Below, one piece after another: positions 2,906 to 41,888 of a DNA stretch of 46,167 nt. Below the pieces are notes generated by a model. That model did not search any database and was not told the DNA's origin. It saw only the letters and a list, made by a program, of their open reading frames with translations. Where the stretch lies: contig JALOQB010000005.1 in NCBI GenBank assembly GCA_025453595.1, forward strand, positions 1-46,167, in the 5' to 3' direction. Origin of the DNA: Polyangiaceae bacterium. Lineage in GTDB: Bacteria > Myxococcota_A > Polyangia > Polyangiales > Polyangiaceae. The translations under genes and the position numbers were made by a program. Every line of letters starts with the position of its first letter. The first letter of the stretch is position 1.

Positions 2906-3757
2906 TCAGTCGCAGCGGATCTGGTGCTCGGCGGCCTGCTTGACGTAGTGCTTGTAGAGCCCTTTGCAGCTGGCATCCCCCCGGTCGCTCGGGATCACGC
3001 AACGCTCGGTGAAGAGCCCCGGAGTCAGCTGCTTCACCACGGCCTCCACCCCGGGGTCCTGCGGGATTCGCTCGCAGCAGCGCGCCGCCGCGGCGCAGAA
3101 CCCGCCGGGAGGCGGGGACAGGGCCTCCCAGTCGACGCCGAAGCGCAGGGCGATGAAGATCATGGCGAGCGACAGCAGGCCGAACGCGAGGACCACGGCC
3201 AGGTCGCTCTGCCGGAGGCGATCCGTATGGAAGAGGGGCGTCGCTGCACCGACCGAGGGGTTCTTGCCGCCACCGGGGGCCTCACGGTAGCTCGGGTCGA
3301 CCTCTTCGCCGGGCGTATCCGTGAGGGCGATCTGCTTGCGGTTCTTGCGGTCCACGCGCAGGAAGACGATCTGCCGCGGCTGCACGGACGCGAGCCGGTG
3401 CTGATCGACGAGCTGGCGGGTCTTGACCATGTAAGGGTCCATCCCTGGCAGCTGGACTTCCACGTCCAGCGAGAGCTCAAGGATGGGGAAGGCCTTCGTG
3501 CCCCCCATTTTTCCCGTCGGTTCCATGCGCAGGATCTGACCGCTCGCGGCCTGCCCGGTCGCAAGGACCCGCAGGAGCCTCCGCTGCAGCCGTGCGCGAG
3601 CCCTCGTATCCCGCCAGAAGAAGAGAAATACCCCGATCATGACCAGGGTCGGAACAACCGCGAGGAGGAGCGTCACTCCGGCAGAATCGCAGGGTCCCCA
3701 GGCCGGCGGAAGACGTACGACCAGGGGGCCTCGTTCTTGCGTCGAAGCTTGCCTCAT
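2906..3757 (-). CDS. Hypothetical two-helix membrane protein
   Basis: 283 residues, family not recognised. One strong membrane helix lies near residues 28-48 (LLLAVVPTLVMIGVFLFFW) and a second near 187-205 (LAVVLAFGLLSLAMIFIAL). The loop between them, about 135 residues, contains a beta-rich segment (SGQILRMEPTGKMGG; LDVEVQLPGM; VFLRVDRKNRKQIAL) that resembles the short beta domains of DUF3592-like membrane proteins. The C-terminal ~75 residues have several cysteines and would be on the same side as the N-terminus. The start is uncertain: the ATG at 3757 has no visible ribosome-binding site, and a GTG just before the first helix (codon 28) is an alternative. Confidence 0.6.
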   Translation of the reverse strand: MRQASTQERGPLVVRLPPAWGPCDSAGVTLLLAVVPTLVMIGVFLFFWRDTRARARLQRRLLRVLATGQAASGQILRMEPTGKMGGTKAFPILELSLDVEVQLPGMDPYMVKTRQLVDQHRLASVQPRQIVFLRVDRKNRKQIALTDTPGEEVDPSYREAPGGGKNPSVGAATPLFHTDRLRQSDLAVVLAFGLLSLAMIFIALRFGVDWEALSPPPGGFCAAAARCCERIPQDPGVEAVVKQLTPGLFTERCVIPSDRGDASCKGLYKHYVKQAAEHQIRCD

Positions 3758-4599: not shown

Positions 4600-6597
4600 A
4601 TGGTGCGTGTTGTTTCCCGGAGACCCCGGACGGTCCTCGCCTCGTCGCTTTGCCTCGCCACCCTGGTGCTCGCCGATGCGGCTCCAGCGCAGGCAAAACT
4701 CCCCAAGAAGGGGGAGATCCACCTCACCAACGTCCAGCTCGGGGAGTGCAAGGCCGCGAAGCTGCGGGTCAGCTACAACGTCGGAGCGATCGCAAATCAG
4801 CCGTCGGTCAGCGGAGGTTTTTCGTGGGAGCAAGAGGGGAAAGAGGACTGCGAATTGCCGCTGGAAGTGGCCATCTTGCTCGAGATCGATAGCAAGGAAG
4901 GTCACGGCTGGATCTGGCACACCTTTCTCGAGAACACCCGCCGCGGCAAGGTCACCGGGTTGCCCACGATCCCGGACTGGGACAAGGCCATCTGCAAGGC
5001 GAACGCCCCCAGGCAGGGCTGTTTCGATGAAACAACGGCGAAGAAGATCTGGAAGAACGGGGAGATCCTGGGCGCCCGGATTTACTACGACCAGGAGAAA
5101 TTCAACGCCAGGATGCAGAAGAAGAAGGAGCGGGAGGCCAGGGAAAAGGAGAGAGAAGAGAGAAGGAAAAACGACAAGAACACCGACAACAAGGAGAAGG
5201 AAAGCGCACCCAAGGAGCAGGACACGCAAGCCCACCTCGAGGCCCGCGAGGGGACCGTGGAGATGGAGCACGTCGTGCTTGGCGGGTGCAAGGCCCGGAA
5301 GATCACGATCTGGTACAAGCTTGACACCATGGCCAGGGAGCCCCTCCTGTTCACCAGGTTTCAGTGGGAGGGCCCGGATGACAAATGCAAGCGCCCCTCG
5401 CAGCTGAATGTGCTCCTGGAGCTTGCCTCGCAGGCGGGGCGAGGGTGGGTATGGTCAGGGTTGATTTCTCCCGCCAAGAGCGGGGCGAAGGTGAGCAATT
5501 TCAACTCACCAGGCTGGGAAACGACGGTCTGCGGCGCCCAGGCCCCCAGAGCGACCTGTCTGGAGCCGCAGGTGGCGAGGCAGGTCTGGAAGCATGGCCA
5601 CGTGGTGGGCGCAGCCCTGTTTCATGACAACAAGCTGGTGCAAAAGGAGGACAGCAGCATCCGATCCATCGGGGAAAGTCGCCCGGATGCCAGCCCTCCG
5701 GAGAACAAGGGCGGCGAAGCGGCCCCACGGAGCGCGGAGCAAGGCAAGAAAGATGCGCCCGACGGCGCAGGATCCTCACCGGGCCAGGGGCCATCGAACG
5801 AGGGGCCGCCCCCTTTCAATCCCCCTGGCGGAACAGGCAAACCTGCCGATCCGGTCAAACCTGCCGATCCGGTCAAACCTGCCGATCCGGTCAAACCTGC
5901 CGATCCCCAGGGGCCTGCCAGCCCACCCCGAGCCCCCGGGAAAACCTTGCCCCCCGCGGGCGTGGTGGTCCCAGGGGTGCGTCCTCCGGAGCAGGAGCGC
6001 AAGGGCAACCCGCCATCACCTCGTGTACCACCGGGGGGTCGCGGGCCGGACGTTGCGAGGCAAATCCAGGAGCAAAGAGAGCAAGAACGCAGGCTGGAGG
6101 CCCAGCGGAAGCTGGAGGTGCAGCGCCAGGCCGAGGCCCAGCGAAGGCAGGAAGAACAGCGACGGCAGGAGGTGCAACGAAGCAGAGACGCCCAGAAGGC
6201 GCCTCCCAAGGCCCGGGAGGAGGAGCAACGACGTCAGCAGGAACGCCAGCGGGTAGAGCAGCAACAGCAGCAACGCGCAGAGGAGCAGCGACGTCAGCAG
6301 CAGGAGCAAGAGCAAGAGCAGCGCCGCCAGCAGGAGCGTCAGCGGGCAGAAGAGCAACGGCGTCAGCAGCAGCAACGGGAGCAAGAGCAGCGCCGCCAGC
6401 AGGAGCAAGAGCAGCGCCGTCAGCAGGAGCGTCAGCGGGTAGAAGAGCAGCGGCGCCAGCAGGAACGAGAGCAGGAGCGAGAGCGCGCGGAGCAACAGCG
6501 GCGCCAGCAGGAGCGTCAGCGAGCGGACGAGCGACGCAAGCAGGAAGAGCGGAGGAAACCCTCGGAGAGCCGGCCTCCGCCGAAGAGAGGCCGCTGA
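4600..6597 (+). CDS. Secreted protein with duplicated four-Cys domain
   Basis: 665 residues, family not recognised. A signal peptide is likely (hydrophobic 12-26, AQA-K near 32). Two copies of a ~130-residue domain follow, at about 37-170 and 217-346, with cysteines C50, C84, C132, C141 and C230, C263, C311, C320; the spacings 34/48/9 and 33/48/9 are almost identical. Shared motifs are LGxC, GxGWxW, (I/V)WKxG and GAxxxxD. A Lys/Glu-rich linker separates the copies. Residues ~350-480 are Pro/Gly-rich and include four PADPVK-type repeats. The last ~180 residues are almost only Q, R and E (coiled-coil-like). Disulfide-stabilised periplasmic or surface domains on a long charged stalk are an inference. 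A near-consensus sigma-54 promoter abuts the start. Confidence 0.7.
5839..5907 (+). repeat. 18-bp in-frame tandem repeat
   Basis: Unit AAACCTGCCGATCCGGTC, three identical copies (5839-5892) plus most of a fourth. It encodes KPADPV repeats in the proline-rich linker of the four-Cys protein. The copies are identical at DNA level, suggesting recent expansion by slippage. Confidence 0.9.
6220..6570 (+). repeat. Degenerate Q/R/E codon repeat tract
   Basis: Imperfect short repeats built from CAG, GAG, CGC and CGT codons ([20 protein letters not shown]). They encode the charged C-terminal tail of the four-Cys protein. The antisense strand is open too and looks Leu-rich; that frame is an artefact of the repeat. 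Confidence 0.7.
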
Positions 6598-6628: not shown

Positions 6629-7867
6629 TCAGAACTGGGCTTTTTCGGTGGAACCGACGAGGGCGAGGGTCGAGGCCTTGCCGCCGGTGATGACCTCGGA
6701 GACCTGGTCGAAGTAGCCGGTGCCGACCTCGCGCTGGTGGCGGGTGGCGGTGTAGCCGTTGGCCTCGGAGGCGAACTCGTTCTGCTGGAACTCGGAGTAA
6801 GCCTTCATGCCCTCGGCCTTGTACTTGCGGGCGAGCTCGAAGATGCCGTGGTTGAGGCTGTGGAAGCCGGCGAGGGTGACGAACTGGAACTTGTACCCCA
6901 TGGCGCCGAGCTCGCGCTGGAACTTGGCGATGGTGGCGTCGTCGAGGTTCTTCTTCCAGTTGAAGGAGGGGGAGCAGTTGTAGGCAAGCATCTTGCCGGG
7001 GAACTTGGCGTGGATGCCCTCGGCGAACTGCCTGGCCTCGTGGAGGTCGGGGGTCGAGGTCTCGCACCAGACGAGGTCGGCGAAGGGGGCGTAGGCGAGG
7101 CCGCGGGCGATGGCGGCCTCGATGCCGCCCTTGAAGAGGAAGAAGCCCTCGGGGGTGCGCTCGCCCTTCACGACGAAGGGCTGGTCGCGCTCGTCGATGT
7201 CGCTGGTGAGGAGCTTGGCGCTGTCGGCGTCGGTGCGGGCGACCAGGAGGGTGGGGACGTCGAGGACGTCGGCGGCGAGGCGGGCGGCGACGAGGGTACG
7301 GATGAAGTGGGCGGTGGGGATGAGCACCTTGCCGCCCATGTGGCCGCACTTCTTCTCGGAGGCCAGTTGGTCCTCGAAGTGAACGCCCGCGGCGCCGGCC
7401 TCGATCATCGCCTTCATCAGCTCGAAGGCGTTGAGGGGCCCGCCGAAGCCGGCCTCGGCGTCGGCCATGATGGGGACGAACCAGTCGCGGGAGAGCTTGC
7501 CCTCGGCGTGCTCGATCTGATCGGCTCGGCGCAGCGAGGCGTTGATGCGCCGGACCACGTTGGGGACGCTGTCGACGGGGTAGAGGCTCTGGTCCGGGTA
7601 CATCTGGCCCGAGGTGTTGGCGTCCGCGGCCACCTGCCAGCCCGAGAGGTAGATGGCCTCGAGGCCAGCGCGGGCCATCTGGACCGCCATGTTGCCGGTG
7701 AGGGCGCCGAGGGCCTGGACGTAATCGCGGGTGTGGAGGAGCTCCCAGAGGCGCCGCGCGCCGCGGCTGGCCAGGGTGTACTCGACCTTGAGGGAGCCGC
7801 GGAGGCGCTCGACGTCGGCGGTGGAATAGGGGCGGGTGATACCGGCAAAACGATCGGGGGTGGTCAT
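6629..7867 (-). CDS. aceA: Isocitrate lyase
   Basis: A 412-residue isocitrate lyase that cleaves isocitrate to glyoxylate and succinate, the first step of the glyoxylate bypass. The catalytic signature KKCGHMGGK lies at 172-180 with the active-site cysteine C174. Other family blocks are visible: [10 protein letters not shown] (75-84), ADAEAGFGG (135-143), WCETSTPD and [10 protein letters not shown]. The length is close to short bacterial AceA. GGAG sits about eight to ten bases before the ATG, so this gene has a ribosome-binding site. It follows aceB by 40 bases on the same strand and is probably cotranscribed with it. Confidence 0.96.
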
Positions 7868-7907
7868 GATGGGTGCTCCAGGGAGAGAGGGACAGCAGGC
7901 AGAGACC

Positions 7908-9512
7908 TCAGCGCACAGGCTCGGGGGCGATGAGCTGACGGTAGGCAGGGAGGGTGAGAAATTCCTCGAAGGAGTCGGCCACGGAGAGCCGCTCGAAGAG
8001 GGCAGTGGCCCGGGGGAAATGGCCGGAGGCGAAGCGCGTCTCGCCGACCTCGCGGCGTACCCGCTGCATCTCCTCGGCGATCAGGCGGGCGAGCAGCTCA
8101 CGGGTGACACGCTGGCCGTCGGCGAGGGTGACCCCGTGGTGGAGCCACTGCCACACCTGGGCGCGGGAGATCTCGGCGGTCGCGGCGTCTTCCATCAGGT
8201 TGTAGATGGGCACGCAGCCCTGGCCGCCGAGCCAGGCCTCGATGTACTGGACGCCGACGCGGATGTTGTGGCGCAGGCCCTCCTCGGTGCGGGTCCCCTC
8301 GATGGGGCGGAGGAGATCGACCTCGGTGATGCGCTCGTCGCGGCGGCGCTCGATCTGGTGAGGCCCGCTCATGTGGGCGTCGAAGATCTCGCGGGCGGTG
8401 GCGACGAGGCCAGGGTGGGCCACCCAGGTGCCGTCGTGGCCGTCCCGCACCTCGCGGAGCTTGTCCGCCCGGACCTTCGCCATCGCCGCCTCGTTGGCCT
8501 CCGGATCGTTCTTGATCGGGATCTGCGCCGCCATGCCGCCCATCGCGTGGACCCCGCGGCGGTGGCACGTCTCGATCAGCAGCAGCGAGTAGGCCCGCAG
8601 AAACCCCTTGTCCATCGAGACCTGCCCCCGGTCCGGGAGCACGTAGGCCCCGTGGGAGCGCAGCTTCTTGATGTAGCTGAAGATGTAATCCCAGCGGCCG
8701 CAGTTGAGGCCCGCCGAGTGATCGCGCAGCTCGTACAGGATCTCATCCATCTCGAAGGCCGCGGTGAGCGTCTCGATGAGGACCGTGGCCTTGATCGTCC
8801 CCACCGGGAGGCCGAGGGCCTCCTGGGAGGCCACGAACACGTCGTTCCAGAGCCGCGCTTCGAGGTGATTCTCGAGCTTGGGCAGGTAGAAGTAGGGGCC
8901 CGCACCCCGGTCGAGGAGCTCGCGGGCGTTGTGGAAGAAATACAGCCCGAAGTCGACCAGCCCCCCCGGGGCCACCTCGCCGTCGACCCGCAGGTGCGCC
9001 TCGTCCAGGTGCCACCCGCGCGGGCGCACCAGCAGCGTCGCCACCCGCTCCTGCAGCGCGTAGCTCTTCTGCTCGGTCTCGTACCGGATGGTCCGCCGCA
9101 CCGCGTCCATCAGGTTCACCTGCCCCTGGATCTGGTTGTCCCAGGTCGGCGAGGAGGAGTCCTCGAAGTCGGCCATGAACAGGTTCGCCCCCGAATTCAG
9201 GGCGTTGATGATCATCTTGCGATCCACCGGGCCGGTGATCTCGACGCGCCGCTCGCTCAGCGCCGGAGGCAGCGGGGCCACCCGCCAGTCCCCCTCGCGG
9301 ATCGCCCGCGTCTCCGGTAGAAAAACCGGCAACTCGCCCTGATCCAGCCGCGCTTGCCGCGCCACCCGCGCCCCCAGCAGCTCGCGCCGGCGGGGCCCGA
9401 AGCGGCGCACCAGCCCCGCGACGAAGGCCAGCGCCTCCGTCGTCAACACACGCTCGAAGCCCGGCTTCACCGGCCCCTCAAGCTCGACCCCTGGCGGACG
9501 TTGCAACGACAT
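7908..9512 (-). CDS. aceB: Malate synthase A
   Basis: A 534-residue malate synthase, condensing glyoxylate with acetyl-CoA to give malate. Typical A-type blocks are present: [73 protein letters not shown] and GGMAAQIPI. The frame is open to 9656, but the upstream part lies in the control region; the ATG at 9512 gives the normal length ([13 protein letters not shown]). The 15-bp dyad GTTGCA-N3-TGCAAC begins six bases upstream of this start, a strong place for regulation. It forms an aceBA operon and is divergent from the RamB/ScfR-like regulator. Confidence 0.95.
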
Positions 9513-9517
9513 GACGC

Positions 9518-9532
9518 GTTGCAGCTTGCAAC
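9518..9532. promoter_or_regulatory. GTTGCA-N3-TGCAAC dyad upstream of aceB
   Basis: A perfect 6-bp inverted repeat with a three-base spacer, six bases from the aceB start codon. A further GTTGCAA lies at 9500-9506, just inside aceB. RamB of corynebacteria is known to bind TTTGCAAA-like boxes near aceA/aceB; this dyad shares the TTGCAA/TGCAA core, so it is a plausible binding site of the divergent regulator. That link is inference. Confidence 0.4.
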
Positions 9533-9590
9533 CCGTAGTGAACTCGGTCAAGTTCTCATGACAACCTGTTTTGCAGCCATTGTTGCCGCA

Positions 9591-9629
9591 TTTACAGGGC
9601 AAGTCTGTAAACCTGTAAATACTGTAAAT
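9591..9629. promoter_or_regulatory. CTGTAAA repeat cluster upstream of the regulator
   Basis: TTTACAG (9591-9597) faces CTGTAAA (9605-9611), which is followed by two further direct copies (9613-9619 and 9622-9628). Copy starts are 8 and 9 bases apart. The last copy overlaps the TAAATC hexamer (9625-9630) that starts 11 bases before the ATG at 9636. Bound protein would block this promoter, so autoregulation is likely. Confidence 0.5.
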
Positions 9630-9635
9630 CGCGTC

Positions 9636-11099
9636 ATGAAGGACCCCTCCCCACATCGCCCCTCCTCCGAGGCTGTCCCGGTGCGTTTTGGCGCCAAATT
9701 GCGGACGTTGCGCCGCAACGCGGGGCTGAGCCAGGCGTACGTGGCCCAGCAGCTCGACATCTCGGCGAGCTACCTGAACCTGATCGAGAACAACCGGAGG
9801 CCGCTGCCAGCGCCCCTGCTGATCAAGGTGGCGCAGCTTTTTCAGGTCGACCTGCGCGCGTTTGCGCCGGACGAAGACGCCCGGCTGCTGGGGGATCTGT
9901 ACGAGGCCTTCTCGGACTCGATGTTCGAGGAGGACCGGCTCAACAGCGGCGAGGTTCGGGAGCTGGTGGGGGCGAGCCCGGGGTGTGCGCGTGCGGTGCT
10001 GAAGCTCTACCGTGCGTACCAGGAGGCGCGGGCCTCGGCGGAGATGCTGGCGTCACGGCTGGCGGACGGGGATGGGGTCGAGGTGCGAGCGCTGATCCCC
10101 TCGGAGGAGGTGAGCGAGCTGGTGCAGCGCCACATGAACCATTTCCCGGGGCTGGAGCGGGGTGCCGAGGCGCTCTGGCGCGAGGCCAGGCTGGACGAGG
10201 ATGACCTCTACCCGGGGCTGGTGCGCTACCTGGAGCGGGGGCTCGGGGTACAGGTACGTGTGGCACGGCGCGGGGATGCGGAGGGGATGCTGCGGCGCTA
10301 CGATGCGGAGCGGCGCATCCTCACCCTGTCCGAGCTGCTGCCCACCCGCAGCCGCAACTTCCAGCTCGCCGCCCAGATCGGCCTGATGACGCAGCGGCAG
10401 GAGCTCGACGAGGTGCTGCGCGACGAACGTTTGAGCTCCGATGAATCCAGGAGCCTGGCGCGGATCGCGCTGGCCAACTACTTCGCCGGCGCGGTGCTGA
10501 TGCCCTACGAGATGTTCCTGAGGGCAGCGCGGGGGGAGCGCTACGACATCGACGTGCTGGGGCGGCGGTTCCGGGTGGGGTTCGAGCAGGTGTGCCACCG
10601 GCTGACGACGATGCGGAGGCCGGGGCAGGAGGGGGTCCCTTTTCATATGATCCGGATCGACGTCGCGGGGAACATCTCCAAGCGCTTCAGCGCCTCGGGG
10701 ATCCACTTCGCGCGATTCAGCGGCGCCTGCCCGCGCTGGAACATCTTCGCGGCCTTCCTCACCCCGGGGATGATCCGGATCCAGGTCTCTCGCATGCCGG
10801 ACGGGGCCTCTTATTTCTGCATCGCGCGCACGATCCAGCGGGACAGCGGGGGGTACCACGCGCAGCATCCGATCATGGCCATCGGCCTCGGGTGTCAGGC
10901 GCAGTTTGCCCGGGAGCTGATCTATTCAGACGGGGTCGATCTGAAGGACCCGACCACGGCGATCCCGGTGGGGGTGACCTGCCGGATGTGCGAGCGAGAC
11001 GACTGCGAGCAGCGGGCCTTCCCGTCGCTGCGGCACCCGCTGCGGGTGGACGAGAACGTGCGTCGCCTCTCGATGTACTCGTCCGGCGGATCGCGCTGA
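9636..11099 (+). CDS. RamB/ScfR-type XRE regulator of acyl metabolism
   Basis: 487 residues in three parts: an N-terminal XRE helix-turn-helix (about 12-70; LRTLRRNAGLSQAYVAQQLD, SASYLNLIENNRR), an ImmA/IrrE-like domain (about 200-330), and a C-terminal DUF2083 domain ending in CRMCERDDCEQRAFP. This is the architecture of RamB, MsrR and ScfR, which sense short-chain acyl-CoA or acetate supply and control glyoxylate and propionate genes. The HExxH protease motif is not present: the equivalent helix reads NFQLAAQIGLM, so the domain is probably a non-catalytic sensor, as usual in this family. It is divergent from aceB across 123 bases of repeats. The ATG at 9636 has no ribosome-binding site but fits a leaderless transcript. 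Confidence 0.88.
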   Translation: MKDPSPHRPSSEAVPVRFGAKLRTLRRNAGLSQAYVAQQLDISASYLNLIENNRRPLPAPLLIKVAQLFQVDLRAFAPDEDARLLGDLYEAFSDSMFEEDRLNSGEVRELVGASPGCARAVLKLYRAYQEARASAEMLASRLADGDGVEVRALIPSEEVSELVQRHMNHFPGLERGAEALWREARLDEDDLYPGLVRYLERGLGVQVRVARRGDAEGMLRRYDAERRILTLSELLPTRSRNFQLAAQIGLMTQRQELDEVLRDERLSSDESRSLARIALANYFAGAVLMPYEMFLRAARGERYDIDVLGRRFRVGFEQVCHRLTTMRRPGQEGVPFHMIRIDVAGNISKRFSASGIHFARFSGACPRWNIFAAFLTPGMIRIQVSRMPDGASYFCIARTIQRDSGGYHAQHPIMAIGLGCQAQFARELIYSDGVDLKDPTTAIPVGVTCRMCERDDCEQRAFPSLRHPLRVDENVRRLSMYSSGGSR

Positions 11100-22590: not shown

Positions 22591-23294
22591 TCGTCGTCGT
22601 CGCAGGGACCGGGACCGACGTGGGCAAGACCTTCGTCACCAGCGCGCTCCTGGCCGAGCTTCGGGCGCAGGGGGCCCCGGCCTCCGCCTGGAAGCCGGTG
22701 GCGAGCGGGGTCCTGCCGGGCCAGCCCTCCCCCGACAGCGCGGCCCACGCGGAGGCCCTGGGGGCGCCGGTGGAGCCGCCGCTGCATTGCTTCCAGCCCC
22801 CGCTCTCCCCCCACCTGGCGGCGCGCCGGGCCGGGGTCCACCTCACCGTCGCGGCGATCGTGGCCCGCGCCCGGGCCCTCGCGGAGCGGCCCGGGTGGCT
22901 GTTCGTCGAGACCGCGGGGGGGCTGTTCTCCCCCCTCAACGGCACCGAGACCAACGCGGACCTGGCCCGCGCCCTCGGCGGCCTCCTGCTGCTCGTGGCC
23001 CCCGATCGGCTCGGGGTCCTTCACGATGTCCTCGCCACCACCCGGGCCGCCGCCCCGATGGGGGTACATGCGGACACCATCGCGCTCTCCTGTCCGGAAG
23101 TTCCGGATGATTCGACGGGGACGAACGGGGAGGAGCTGGGGAGGCTGCTGGGGGTGCGGCCGGCGGAGTTCCCGAGGGGGGCGCCGGGGGCGGCGGGGAT
23201 GGCGGCGGCTTGTAGAGAAGTTCTCTACAGACTCGAGGCGGCGAGAGGGGCGCGTTGCGGCAGCGAGAGGGATGAGGCTAGGCTGGGCGCATGA
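22587..23294 (+). CDS. bioD: ATP-dependent dethiobiotin synthetase
   Basis: 235 residues. It closes the ureido ring of dethiobiotin from 7,8-diaminopelargonate, CO2 and ATP. The P-loop GTGTDVGKT spans 7-15, K36 is in AWKPV, and the ETAGGLFSPLN motif is intact. The start ATG overlaps the bioF stop, and the bioD stop overlaps the start of the following kinase (ATGA). The last ~20 residues are weakly conserved; this part carries the GTAGAGA-N3-TCTCTAC palindrome and the -10-like TAGGCT, both likely control sites for the kinase gene. Confidence 0.93.
   Translation: MIVVVAGTGTDVGKTFVTSALLAELRAQGAPASAWKPVASGVLPGQPSPDSAAHAEALGAPVEPPLHCFQPPLSPHLAARRAGVHLTVAAIVARARALAERPGWLFVETAGGLFSPLNGTETNADLARALGGLLLLVAPDRLGVLHDVLATTRAAAPMGVHADTIALSCPEVPDDSTGTNGEELGRLLGVRPAEFPRGAPGAAGMAAACREVLYRLEAARGARCGSERDEARLGA
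23211..23229. promoter_or_regulatory. TGTAGAGA-AGT-TCTCTACA operator-like palindrome
   Basis: Perfect 8-bp inverted repeat around AGT, 62 bases before the kinase-ATPase start and inside the 3' end of bioD. A second member of the same family (GTAGAGA-ATA-TCTCTAC) is at 45264-45280 before the pilin-like gene, which suggests a shared regulator. Confidence 0.45.
23279..23284 (+). promoter_or_regulatory. Candidate -10 element of the kinase-ATPase gene
   Basis: GGCTAGGCT gives TAGGCT starting 12 bases before the ATG at 23291. TTGCGG lies 18 bases upstream as a possible -35. It would allow expression of the kinase independently of the bio operon. Confidence 0.4.
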
Positions 23295-26200
23295 GCGGAT
23301 CCCCGGGGGTGGTGACCCCGGCGCGGCTGGGGCAGTACGAGATCCTGAGGCGGCTGGGGGCCGGGGGGATGGCGGAGGTGTTCCTGGCGAGGAAGCCGGG
23401 GGCGGAGAACACCTACAAGCAGCTGGTGATCAAGCGGGTGCTGCCGCACCACGGGAAGTCGAGGCGATTCCAGGCGATGTTCGTGGCGGAGGCGCAGCTG
23501 GCGACGCGGCTGAACCACCCGAACATCGTGCAGGTGTACGATTTCGAGGACATCGGGGAGGAGGGGCAGCTCCTGACGATGGAGCACGTGGAGGGGCCGG
23601 ATCTGGGGAGGGTGCTGAGCGCGGCGCGTGGGCGCGGGGTGAGGCTGCCGCCGTGGGTGTCCGCGTACATCATCGCGGAGGCGGCGAAGGGGCTGCATTA
23701 CGCCCACGAGCGGAAGAACGACGACGGGGCGCCGCTGGCGATCGTGCACCGGGACGTGAGTCCGCAGAACATTTTGCTCTCGTGGGAGGGGGCGGTGAAG
23801 ATCGCGGATTTTGGCATCGCGAGCGCCAACCTGTTCCGGGAAGAGGGGGGGCTGCTCAAGGGCAAATTCGGCTACATGTCGCCGGAGCAGGCCCAGGGGG
23901 AGGGGGTGGATCGGCGCAGCGACATCTACGCGCTGGGGGTGTGCCTCCACGAGATGCTGACGGGGCGCCCGCTGCACGGGGTGCTGCAGGGGGACGAGCT
24001 GCTGGAGGCGGTGCGGCGCGGGGTGGTGGAGCCGCCGAGCACCTACACCCGCGAGATCCCGGGGGAGCTGGAGGGGATCGTGATGAAGGCCCTCTCGCGG
24101 GAGAAAGGGGCGCGCTTCCAGACCTCGCGGGACCTGGCGGGGGCCATCCACCGGGCGATGCTGGCCCGGCAAGAGCTGGTGGACGCGACGGCGCTGGAGG
24201 CGGTGTTGCTCCAGGTGCCAGGGCGGGATCCGGAGCCGGCGGCAGGGACCGGGGTGGGGAGCGAGGGGCGCCCCTCGACGGCGCAGCAGACCCCCCACGA
24301 AGAGGCCCGGGGCGGCGAGGCCACGGGGGTGAACACGGCCCACGACCGGCAGCCCCAGCCGCGGGGGGCCCGGGAGGTCCGCCACGTGGCCGTGGTGACA
24401 ATGCGGCTCGAGGGCATCGGTCACCTGGAGGGGGCCGCAGGCGTCGCCCGGGCCGAGTACGTGCTGGCCCGCCTGCGGGAGACCCTCGAGGCCATCGCCT
24501 ACAAGCGCGGCGCCGCGTGGCAGTGGCAAGGCGACCGGCACGCCCAGGCCATCGTGGGGCTGCTGGCCAACTCGTCCCGGGCCGCGGTCGAGGCCGCCTG
24601 GCTCGCCGTCGACGTGCACGAGGCCATGGACGGCGCCTCGGAGGACCTGGAGGTCCCGCTCCAGGCGAGCCTCGCCATCGTCCGGGGGGTGGCCTCCGGC
24701 GAGCGCGAGGCCAGCGGACGGCTGGCGCGGCCCACGCTGCTGCCGCCGGCGGGCTACCTGGCGGGGCTCCTGGGGGAGCAGGCCCCCTGGGGCGCGACCT
24801 GGGTGGCGGGGGGGCTCTACCGCATGGTGCGGCGCGACTTTCGCTGGGGCGACGCCCCGCTGGTCGAGGTCCCGCCCCAGCCCTCCCTGCCGCTGCCGCG
24901 GGCGCTGCGGGTCTACGCCCTGCAGCGCCCCCTCAACCGCGAGGAGCGCGCCGCCGAGGCCGCCCTGGCCCCCGGCGATCTGGTGGGCCGGGACGCCGAA
25001 AAAGCCGACCTCCACGCCGCTTACCACCGGTCGGTCTCCCCGGAGAACGGCGCCCAGGGCGCCATCATCAGCCGCGCCGTCGTGGGCGAGATGGGCATCG
25101 GCAAGAGCGCCCTCGTCGCGGCCTTCCTCGCCGAGCTGCCCCCGGAGGCCCGCCTGCTGCGCCACGAGGCCAGCCACGCCCGCAGCGACCTCCCCTTCAG
25201 CGCCATCGCGGCCCTCACCCGCGAGGCCCTCGGCGTCGACACCGAGACCCCCGCCGACGAGCTGAAAGAACGGCTCGATGAGCTCTTCGACGGCCAGGCC
25301 CGCCCCTCCAGCGGGCCCTCGGTCCAGGAGCGCCTGCTCGACCTGCTCCTGGGCCGCGCCGAGATGGCCCTCGACGCCGACGACCTCGCCTTCCGTCGCC
25401 GCCAGATCGGCGGCGCGGTCCGCGCCCTGCTCGCCGAGCTCGCCTCCCGTCAGCCCCTCGTCCTCGTCTACGACGGCCTCCAGTGGATCGATCGCCCCAG
25501 CCTCGAGCTCATCGCCGAGCTGATCCGACGCGAGGATTCCCTCCCCATCCTCACCCTGCTCCTGACGCGCCCCGACGAGCGCGTCCTCGGCCAGCTCGAA
25601 GGCATCGTCCGGCTCGACCTCCAGGGCCTCTCCCGCGAGGACCAGATCCGCCTCGTGGAGGCACGGCTCGGGGTCCGTCAGGGCGTCGCCGCCGTCTGCG
25701 CCGAGCTGGCCCCCCGGGTCGCCGGAAACCCCTTTTTCCTCCTGGAGATGGTGGATGCGCTGCTGGAGCGCGGCACCCTGGAGCTGCAGCAGGCCGAGAA
25801 CGGCGAGGGCGAGCTGGTGCGGGTCGAGCAGGGGCAAGCGCCGCTGCCCTCGACGCTGGAGCAGATCCTGGGGGACCGGCTCCGGGAGCTCTCCTCGCGG
25901 GAGCGCAGCGTGGTCGAGTGGCTGGCGGTGGCGGGGACGCCGCTGACCGGCGGCGAGCTCCAGGGGCTCCAGGGGGAAGACCTGGAAGAGGGGGTCTCGC
26001 GGCTGTGCGCCCGGGGGCTGTGCGATGCGCGGGGAGAGCAGGTGGATTTCCGGCACACGATCACCCGGGACGTGGCCTACCAGGACCTGGATCCGGACCG
26101 GCGGCGCGAGCTTCACCGCCGCTTCGGGGAGCACCTGCTGGCGGTGGGTCAGGGCAAGGGCCTGGCGGCGGCCACGGTGGCCAAACACCTGGCGCGAGGC

Positions 26201-27598
26201 GGCGACGCGGACCGGGCCGCGGACCTCTACCTGGAGGCAGCCACGACGGCCCGCCAGACGTACCAGACCCCGATGACTGTGCGCTATTACCAGCGCGCCC
26301 TGCAGCTGTTGCCCGCCAGGGACCTGCGGCGCCTGGAGGCTCACGAGGCGCTGGAGGCCTCGTTCCGGGTGGTCGGGAGGCGGCGCGATCGCAAGGAGCA
26401 GCTGTCCGAGCTGCGGCGCCTGGCCCGGGCGTCAGGCCAGCCCCGGTGGGTGGCGCTGGCGCTGGTGCGCTCGGCGCGCCTCGACCTCGACGAGGGCAAC
26501 CTCACCCACGGGATCAACCTGGCCCGCAGCGCCGTCGAGGCGGCGCGCCTGGCGCGCTCGCCGAGCCTGGAGACGGAGGCGCAGACCATCGTCTCCGAGC
26601 TGCTGCGCGAGCTGGGCGACCTCCCCGGCGCCCTGGAGGCCTGCGACGCGGCCCTCGCGGTGGCCCAGCGTCACCGCGGCATCACCGCCCGCAACCGGGC
26701 CGACGTGCTCCGGTCCCGCGGGGCCATCCTGCGACGCCTGGGCCGCGTCCGCGAGGCGGTCAACGCCTACGCCGAGGCCATCGCGATCTTCCGCAGCACC
26801 GGGGCCCGGCGCATGGAGGCCCGCACCCGCAACTCCCTCGCCATGGCCATGCTGGTCTCCGAGCGCTGGGAGGACGCCATCGCCCTCGCGCTGGAGGCCA
26901 TCCAGCTCGACCTGTCGGTGGGCAGCCGCTTCCAGATCGCCAAGACCCTGACCAACATCGGCATGGCCTACGCGCGCATGGGCGACCTGCCCCGGGCCGT
27001 CGCCTACCTGCGCCGCTCCCGCGAGGCCCACGAGCGCTACGGCGACCAGGACTCCCTCGCCGACACGCTCCTGGTCTCCGCCGAGGTCGTCCTCGACAGC
27101 GGCGACTCGGACGCGGCCCACAGCTTCTGCACCGAGGCCTCCACCCTCAGCAGCCTCACCCACAACGGCTACGACGCGGTCCACGAGAAGATCGTCCGCG
27201 CCCTCATCGCCCGGGCCCACCGCGACTCCACCTCGGCCATCTCCTGCGCCTTCGAGGCCCGCCAGGAGGCCGAGAGCCAGGCGCTCTCCTCGTTCCACAT
27301 CTATGCCACCAGCATCGAGGCCCTCTCGCGGGTCGAGGCCGGCGACCTCCACACCGGCATCCTCCTCGCGTCCACCGCCCTCGGCGCGGTCTCCTCGATC
27401 CCCAGCGAGTACGGCATCGAGATCCGCGTCTTCGCCTGCGAGGCCCTCGCTCGTGCCCAGGCCCCCCTCGCCCAGGAGGCCCGCCGCGGCGTCGTCCAGC
27501 ACCTCCACGAGACCGCCGAGCGCATCCGGGACCCTCGCCTCCGCTCCCTCTTCCTCCAGCGCCCCCTCCTCCGCCCCCTCCTCGCCCCCCGCCGCTGA
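23291..27598 (+). CDS. Ser/Thr kinase-cyclase-like-ATPase-TPR protein
   Basis: A 1435-residue cytosolic signalling protein. Kinase domain about 15-290: GAGGMAEV (23-30), K48, catalytic loop HRDVSPQN (153-160, the myxobacterial variant of HRDLKPEN), DFGIAS, and a normal YMSPEQ. Residues ~360-560 resemble a degenerate class III nucleotidyl cyclase homology domain (RHVAVVTMRLEGI). An AAA/STAND-type ATPase follows, with P-loop GEMGIGKS (599-606), Walker B-like LVLVYDGLQWID and GNPFFLLEM. The rest, from about 990, is TPR repeats. No membrane helix is visible. Family role: multi-input signal integration with autoregulated phosphorylation. It is coupled to bioD by a four-base overlap but also has its own candidate promoter. 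Confidence 0.9.
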   Translation: MSGSPGVVTPARLGQYEILRRLGAGGMAEVFLARKPGAENTYKQLVIKRVLPHHGKSRRFQAMFVAEAQLATRLNHPNIVQVYDFEDIGEEGQLLTMEHVEGPDLGRVLSAARGRGVRLPPWVSAYIIAEAAKGLHYAHERKNDDGAPLAIVHRDVSPQNILLSWEGAVKIADFGIASANLFREEGGLLKGKFGYMSPEQAQGEGVDRRSDIYALGVCLHEMLTGRPLHGVLQGDELLEAVRRGVVEPPSTYTREIPGELEGIVMKALSREKGARFQTSRDLAGAIHRAMLARQELVDATALEAVLLQVPGRDPEPAAGTGVGSEGRPSTAQQTPHEEARGGEATGVNTAHDRQPQPRGAREVRHVAVVTMRLEGIGHLEGAAGVARAEYVLARLRETLEAIAYKRGAAWQWQGDRHAQAIVGLLANSSRAAVEAAWLAVDVHEAMDGASEDLEVPLQASLAIVRGVASGEREASGRLARPTLLPPAGYLAGLLGEQAPWGATWVAGGLYRMVRRDFRWGDAPLVEVPPQPSLPLPRALRVYALQRPLNREERAAEAALAPGDLVGRDAEKADLHAAYHRSVSPENGAQGAIISRAVVGEMGIGKSALVAAFLAELPPEARLLRHEASHARSDLPFSAIAALTREALGVDTETPADELKERLDELFDGQARPSSGPSVQERLLDLLLGRAEMALDADDLAFRRRQIGGAVRALLAELASRQPLVLVYDGLQWIDRPSLELIAELIRREDSLPILTLLLTRPDERVLGQLEGIVRLDLQGLSREDQIRLVEARLGVRQGVAAVCAELAPRVAGNPFFLLEMVDALLERGTLELQQAENGEGELVRVEQGQAPLPSTLEQILGDRLRELSSRERSVVEWLAVAGTPLTGGELQGLQGEDLEEGVSRLCARGLCDARGEQVDFRHTITRDVAYQDLDPDRRRELHRRFGEHLLAVGQGKGLAAATVAKHLARGGDADRAADLYLEAATTARQTYQTPMTVRYYQRALQLLPARDLRRLEAHEALEASFRVVGRRRDRKEQLSELRRLARASGQPRWVALALVRSARLDLDEGNLTHGINLARSAVEAARLARSPSLETEAQTIVSELLRELGDLPGALEACDAALAVAQRHRGITARNRADVLRSRGAILRRLGRVREAVNAYAEAIAIFRSTGARRMEARTRNSLAMAMLVSERWEDAIALALEAIQLDLSVGSRFQIAKTLTNIGMAYARMGDLPRAVAYLRRSREAHERYGDQDSLADTLLVSAEVVLDSGDSDAAHSFCTEASTLSSLTHNGYDAVHEKIVRALIARAHRDSTSAISCAFEARQEAESQALSSFHIYATSIEALSRVEAGDLHTGILLASTALGAVSSIPSEYGIEIRVFACEALARAQAPLAQEARRGVVQHLHETAERIRDPRLRSLFLQRPLLRPLLAPRR

Positions 27599-40928: not shown

Positions 40929-41888
40929 ATGAACAAGTCCAAGGAGAAGAGCAAAGAGGGCAGCAAATCGTCCTCGAAGATCCCGGTGGCCCGCGAGTCG
41001 TCCTCGAAGATCCCGGTGGCCCGCGAGTCGTCCACCAAGATCCCGGTGGCCCGCGAGTCTTCTTCCAAGATGCCGGCGGCACGAGAATCCTCGTCGAAGA
41101 TGCCGGTGGCCCGCGACTCTTCTGCTCGAATCCCGGCGGCCCGCGAGTCGTCCACCAAGATCCCGGCGGCCCGCGAGTCGTCGACCAAGATCCCGGCGGC
41201 GCGCCCCAGCACCGGCGAGGGGCGAGGCTCCGCGGGGAAGATGAAGGCCGCCGAGGCCCGCGAGAGCGTGAAGGGGCGCGCGGCGAAGGCGGCCGAGCCG
41301 GCCGAGGCGCCGGAGCTCCTCGAGGGCGAGGACGGCGAGGACGGCGATCAGCCCAAGCGCGCCATGGGGCTCCGCGGGGCCGCGCCCTGGGCCGCTCGCC
41401 ACGCGGCCAAGCATGCCGCCGAGGCCCGCAAGCGAGCCGCCGAGCCCCCTCCCCCGGGCAGCGCCCGCGCCACCATCCGCACGCCGACCGGCATCGAGGC
41501 CATCAAGGCCCGCATCGGCGAGCTCCACAACGCCGTCGAGCGCGTGAAGAGCCTGCGCAAGAACCTGAACAAATCGTTCTTCGAGCTGGGCCTGGTGCTC
41601 CGTGAAATCCAGGAGCAACGCATGTTCGAGGCCAAGGGGTTCCAGAACTTCGAGGCCTTCGTCGAGCGCGAGATCGACCTGAGCAAGTCCATCGCGCTGC
41701 GGCTGGTCAAGCTGGTCACCACCTTCACCCGCGAGCAGGCGCTGGCGCAGGGCTACGACCGGGCCCTCGAGACGCTGGCGCAGATGGAAGGCGCCGAGGG
41801 GGCCCAGGCCATCAGCGACTCGAAGCTACCGATCGCCAAGCCGGTCATGCCGACCAGCGTGACCCGCGGCCCGATCGTCGGCCGGTGA
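40929..41888 (+). CDS. Decapeptide-repeat basic protein, DNA-binding-like C-terminus
   Basis: 319 residues. Residues 14-93 are eight tandem ten-residue repeats (SSSKIPVARE and variants SSTKIPAARE, SSARIPAARE), each with a Lys/Arg, a Pro and a conserved Ala-Arg. A Lys/Ala-rich stretch (~100-185) resembles histone H1-like tails. The C-terminal ~120 residues are helical (ELHNAVERVKSLRKNLNKSF, FQNFEAFVEREIDLSKSIAL) and resemble ParB/phage-type helix-turn-helix segments of the type xxFEAYVxREFxLSxxxA. Function unknown; nucleic-acid binding with a multivalent tail is an inference. GGGAG lies ten bases before the ATG. Its last 63 bases overlap the convergent REC-histidine kinase gene. Confidence 0.75.
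   Translation: MNKSKEKSKEGSKSSSKIPVARESSSKIPVARESSTKIPVARESSSKMPAARESSSKMPVARDSSARIPAARESSTKIPAARESSTKIPAARPSTGEGRGSAGKMKAAEARESVKGRAAKAAEPAEAPELLEGEDGEDGDQPKRAMGLRGAAPWAARHAAKHAAEARKRAAEPPPPGSARATIRTPTGIEAIKARIGELHNAVERVKSLRKNLNKSFFELGLVLREIQEQRMFEAKGFQNFEAFVEREIDLSKSIALRLVKLVTTFTREQALAQGYDRALETLAQMEGAEGAQAISDSKLPIAKPVMPTSVTRGPIVGR
40968..41207 (+). repeat. 30-bp in-frame tandem repeat, eight copies
   Basis: Eight copies of a 30-bp unit (first two identical in DNA) encoding SSSKIPVARE-type decapeptides. Later copies differ at the Ser/Thr, Ile/Met and Val/Ala positions, while the Arg and Pro positions are constant. Copy number is likely to vary between strains. Confidence 0.95.

Follow-up and report, generated by a model that had tools for sequence, protein, structure and literature searches.

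The gene at positions 4600 to 6597 lies on the forward strand of a 46,167-nucleotide stretch of Polyangiaceae bacterium DNA (contig JALOQB010000005.1) that is called the window here. It encodes a 665-residue protein that is laid out as follows:

4600-6597, forward strand: whole gene, 665-residue protein (from the ORF list; in-frame GC3 0.84 in the domains)
4600-4695, forward strand: predicted Sec signal peptide, residues 1-32, cleavage after AQA (translation, by eye)
4705-5091, forward strand: domain copy 1, residues 36-164, cysteines 50, 84, 132 and 141 (pairwise alignment, cysteine count)
5092-5241, forward strand: charged E/K/R linker of ~50 residues between the two domains (composition)
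5242-5628, forward strand: domain copy 2, residues 215-343, cysteines 230, 263, 311 and 320 (pairwise alignment, cysteine count)
5629-6039, forward strand: Pro/Gly-rich linker of ~137 residues with KPADPV repeats (composition, tandem repeats)
6040-6594, forward strand: Q/R/E-rich tail of 185 residues, net charge +14 (charge-pattern test; overlapping tandem DNA repeats)

Gene Organization and Genomic Context

The N-terminus of the protein, read by eye from the translation, has an Arg-rich start followed by a hydrophobic stretch and an AQA cleavage site, and a ninth cysteine (C18) sits within this segment. It thus resembles a cleavable Sec-type signal peptide, and the protein is predicted to be exported, as a sequence-only reading of this DNA had already proposed. 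By eye the signal peptide holds no lipobox, and as the protein also has neither a C-terminal hydrophobic stretch nor a C-terminal cysteine, no outer-membrane anchor is visible and a surface location is unproven. The C-terminal tag of MYXO-CTERM surface proteins starts with a short motif holding an invariant cysteine (PMC11980579); the present protein has no cysteine beyond residue 350 and finishes in charged and Pro residues. Each domain has a GC3 of 0.84 in the frame of the gene, as coding DNA would be expected to, with higher values in the neighbouring genes (0.905-0.959), and the GC of the two domain copies is 0.604 and 0.636 compared to 0.709 for the window. The KPADPV repeats of the Pro/Gly-rich linker are encoded by an 18-bp tandem array (5838-5906, 3.8 copies).

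The gene appears to stand alone. Its divergent upstream neighbour encodes a calcineurin-like phosphoesterase and its convergent downstream neighbour an isocitrate lyase. The latter belongs to a compact cluster for the glyoxylate bypass that includes the likely regulator (6629-11099). Here the isocitrate lyase gene (reverse strand) is followed by an ORF that by eye resembles malate synthase (reverse strand) and by a divergently oriented gene for a RamB-like acetate regulator (NCBIfam E 8.9e-133, below its cut-off). The family search covered just one other genome of the same genus, G042, which encodes an isocitrate lyase that is 93% identical; the twin-domain gene is missing beside it and an unrelated, exported-looking ORF follows the lyase gene instead, so the locus is variable. 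A recent gain of the gene, with which the lower GC of the domains would agree, is possible, as is loss in G042.

Elsewhere in the window, an ORF at 2906-3757 (reverse strand) seems by eye to contain two membrane stretches and has a C-terminus rich in cysteine, with nothing above the cut-off in Pfam and no match in NCBIfam. A 1435-residue Ser/Thr kinase with a long regulatory part (23291-27598) resembles the TOMM kinase/cyclase fusion (E 1.6e-55, below the cut-off), and an ORF at 40929-41888 contains about eight 30-bp tandem repeats (40968-41204) encoding ten-residue units like SSKIPVARES.

An Old Internal Duplication

The sequence-only reading had described two copies of a ~130-residue domain, similar in cysteine spacing and low in identity, as the product of an old duplication, and both the repeat and its age are borne out. 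Copies 1 and 2 share 42 of 128 aligned residues, BLASTP pairs them over 130 columns (E 3e-31), and their local alignment score of 240 compares to a maximum of 47 in 1000 shuffles. The cysteine spacings, counted from residue positions, are 34/48/9 in copy 1 and 33/48/9 in copy 2, exactly as had been claimed. Over the aligned codons the two copies have a DNA identity of 0.508, and the same codon is used at 25 of the 42 identical residues, so the internal duplication is old.

A Charged, Predicted Helical Tail

The C-terminal region differs from its earlier description as a tail of Q, R and E only that is joined to the domains. These three residues make up 145 of its 185 positions (56 Q and 50 R), the others including 11 A, 7 P and 6 K, and the Pro/Gly-rich linker separates it from domain 2. 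The proposal that the tail forms a stalk fared better as regards its charge patterning, with helicity a matter of prediction. Pairs of opposite charge at i,i+3/i+4 number 90 (50.3, sd 5.5, in shuffles) and pairs of like charge 19 (51.1, sd 5.5), with none of 5000 composition shuffles as high or as extreme, respectively; the DNA of the tail is a patchwork of tandem repeats that could spread one good unit, and composition shuffles do not preserve such repeats. The tail thus has the regular opposite charges over a long stretch that define the single alpha-helix charge pattern, and we infer a long helical stalk of the single-alpha-helix type. When the same genome was searched with the tail, no match at E up to 1e-5 turned up apart from the tail itself, with 150 of 660 candidates scored.

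Searches for Related Domains

Each repeat was searched separately against protein families, as the earlier reading had advised, and neither half matched Pfam, NCBIfam, PHROGs or the PDB sequences. Pfam and NCBIfam gave no family for either copy at E up to 10 and PHROGs none at E up to 1, in searches whose HMMER filters discard weak matches. A long construct gave ten weak rows in Pfam and five in NCBIfam, all of which overlap the charged linker and were set aside as composition matches; a PDB sequence match to a cyanate hydratase chain (E 0.6) was taken as chance, and the PDB search with the domain copies yielded no meaningful match. In the same genome the only match is the gene itself, with no second locus for the domain, and a 324-residue query against the family matched 1 of 108 genomes, its own, and none of the other 107. 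Pattern matches in genome contigs (21 with a single sequence, 72 with the two-copy alignment) and in viral contigs (31) yielded none that was confirmed, and tblastn on plasmids gave nothing for the domain. A literature search found no description of it, which is not proof of its being unpublished. Judged by these searches, the domain is undescribed in the libraries covered and sparsely distributed, within a familiar architecture. The novelty claimed for the protein therefore holds for the domain as a described family and not for the architecture, since exported paired heads on a low-complexity stalk are familiar.

A Distant Relative in the Same Phylum

A two-copy profile run against 377 genomes of the same phylum found one convincing match outside the window, in genome G240 (E 4.8e-7; profile positions 5-125 of 146, without a stop). 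This domain scores 33.4 bits, compared to 5.5 for the best of 5000 shuffles of itself, and lies at the extreme C-terminal end of a Cys-rich protein of 1194 residues that starts like a lipoprotein (L060:4273-7857). A weak fusolisin row at the N-terminus of that protein, with E 0.00098 where the cut-off is 999 bits, was rejected. One relative is accepted among the 376 other genomes, leaving aside the lower-scoring rows (E 0.007 to 9.5) of this search and of another one. Among the candidates discarded, the match in G403 (E 0.0176 with the two-copy profile, 5.0e-4 with a three-row profile that includes the G240 domain) runs antisense to a 467-residue ORF that by eye encodes an S41-type protease lipoprotein, and those in G216, G125 and G140 (E 0.0015 to 0.0093) are short and contain an internal stop. 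The three-row profile revealed no further credible member in 317 genomes of the class to which the window belongs, in 52 from the class of G240, in 71 from a third class or in 377 of the phylum (apparently the same draw as before); the first pass of the large searches scored only some candidates per genome, and absence from them is not proof.

The gene of the relative adjoins one (L060:2287-3909) whose product carries a choice-of-anchor L domain (NCBIfam E 3.4e-39) and TSP3 repeats (Pfam TSP_3 E 1.8e-10), which places the relative in a cell-surface setting. The same neighbour is partly similar to the cell-cohesion protein MtsC.

Cysteine Pairing and Predicted Fold

The three-row alignment places I and V of the G240 domain at the positions of C1 and C2, and shows that the domain retains C3 and C4, nine residues apart. 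All four cysteines are therefore not a trait of the domain family, and the earlier proposal that the cysteine frame is under selection is consistent with the two window copies, which keep all four, but has to be narrowed to C3-C4 for the relative. If C1 and C2 formed a disulfide, they would be expected to be lost or gained jointly, and together with the topology of the structural models it suggests that the domain pairs C1 with C2 and C3 with C4; the joint absence is seen in one relative and counts as one event.

AlphaFold2 models started from each of the two window copies, and based on an alignment of these two sequences only, reached medium confidence (pLDDT 67.5 and pTM 0.63 for model 1; pLDDT 66.7 and pTM 0.67 for model 2). 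Although started from different copies, both show five long serial strands, a poorly predicted Cys-bearing loop, a helix and a last strand. On this up-down path C1 comes after the first hairpin turn and C2 falls in the loop joining strands 3 and 4, with C3 and C4 in the loop that precedes the helix. To judge from the secondary structure as listed, all four cysteines would then be found at the same end of the sheet. The fold may be described as a beta sandwich or meander plus one helix, which we assign to no known fold.

One candidate for such a fold would be a highly diverged bacterial TRAF-C/MATH-like, peptide-binding beta sandwich. TRAF/MATH chains lead the Foldseek results for both models, with best E values of 0.15 and 0.23 that are not significant, as Foldseek gave no match below E 0.001 for either. 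In VIA-align most rows for model 1 are likewise TRAF/MATH (Z up to 4.5, rmsd 3.7, 102 aligned), but the best match of model 2 (Z 3.1) goes to a non-TRAF chain, with the best TRAF/MATH chain at Z 2.9. According to the notes of the tool, Z values of up to 4.5 and 3.1 possibly reflect only a common arrangement, and no fold in the lists reaches a Z of 5, which does not show the fold to be new. As the MATH family is also unmatched by sequence, we regard this assignment as very unlikely.

Possible Function

We favour, at a probability of roughly 35%, an exported protein, probably of the surface or matrix, that would bind or adhere by means of all-beta twin heads, stapled by disulfides and carried on a long stalk. 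The protein would leave the cell by the Sec route and reach the surface or matrix, where two small disulfide-stapled all-beta domains at its N-terminal end would form the heads, held off by the flexible Pro-rich linker and the long charged helical stalk. With two similar heads it could bind at two sites to a polymer or protein in the envelope or extracellular matrix, or cross-link it, and the tail, which is basic (+14), may anchor the protein to, or space it from, an anionic surface. The surface part of this proposal draws on the cell-surface setting of the G240 relative, and a binding or adhesive role, for whatever ligand, is a guess.

The Pro-rich region, the long charged Q/R/E helix-like region and the absence of a visible surface anchor would also suit a periplasmic spacer or load-bearing protein, whose heads would attach to one layer of the envelope while its charged helix reached across the periplasm. 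TolA has a long helical middle part, to which the protein could be likened. The N-terminus, however, looks like a signal peptide that is cleaved off and not like an anchor, and no TolA/TonB-type model was matched in Pfam and NCBIfam (domain region) or in NCBIfam (whole protein), which leaves the spacer a tentative and rather unlikely alternative. Designed Arg-rich helices aggregated instead of acting as single helices (PMC5347031), so the tail might self-associate. Given that finding and the very high Q and R content of the tail, the protein might be a secreted matrix or coat component whose tail drives self-assembly while the twin domains merely stabilise it. This is unlikely, as two folded domains of old, conserved sequence would then be superfluous and no matrix genes were recognised in the direct neighbourhood. 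That the gene is not real or is an assembly artefact, as overlapping ORFs on both strands, the lack of matches in the 107 other family genomes and the low domain GC might hint, is barely credible given the protein-level conservation of the repeat (E 3e-31), the in-frame GC3 of 0.84 and the independent relative in G240.

A bolder reading would see an extracellular domain superfamily with a small all-beta fold of its own, in which the C3-C4 clamp is ancestral and the C1-C2 staple is gained or lost as a unit, and whose paired heads on a bacterial single-alpha-helix stalk make up an exported binding device of an undescribed type; we consider this quite unlikely. If the interpretation of the protein as a whole is right, it would provide a secreted domain that is small, testable and undescribed, in which the joint absence of two of the four cysteines from the relative serves as a natural experiment on how the disulfides pair, as well as a candidate for a single-helix stalk that a bacterium exports. 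At present the protein contributes one sparsely distributed domain to the many exported proteins that are restricted to single lineages in large genomes.

Comparison With Known Systems

The C-terminal domain of the G240 protein matches the profile over nearly its full length and shares the C3-C4 spacing of nine, and is thus the same domain as the window copies, but it is single and only 20.5% and 26.2% identical to the two, and the protein that carries it has a different N-terminal part and no Q/R/E tail. The TRAF-C/MATH beta sandwich shows a weak overall likeness to the predicted domain model, with scores below significance and no MATH model found for the domain copies in Pfam at E up to 10. 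The tail resembles the SAH (ER/K) stalks of proteins such as myosin-6, as these are described in PMC5347031 and PMC5378345, in having few hydrophobic residues and regular opposite charges at i,i+3/i+4, and differs from them in being very Gln-rich, in using Arg for Lys and in belonging to an exported bacterial protein, with its helicity here a prediction.
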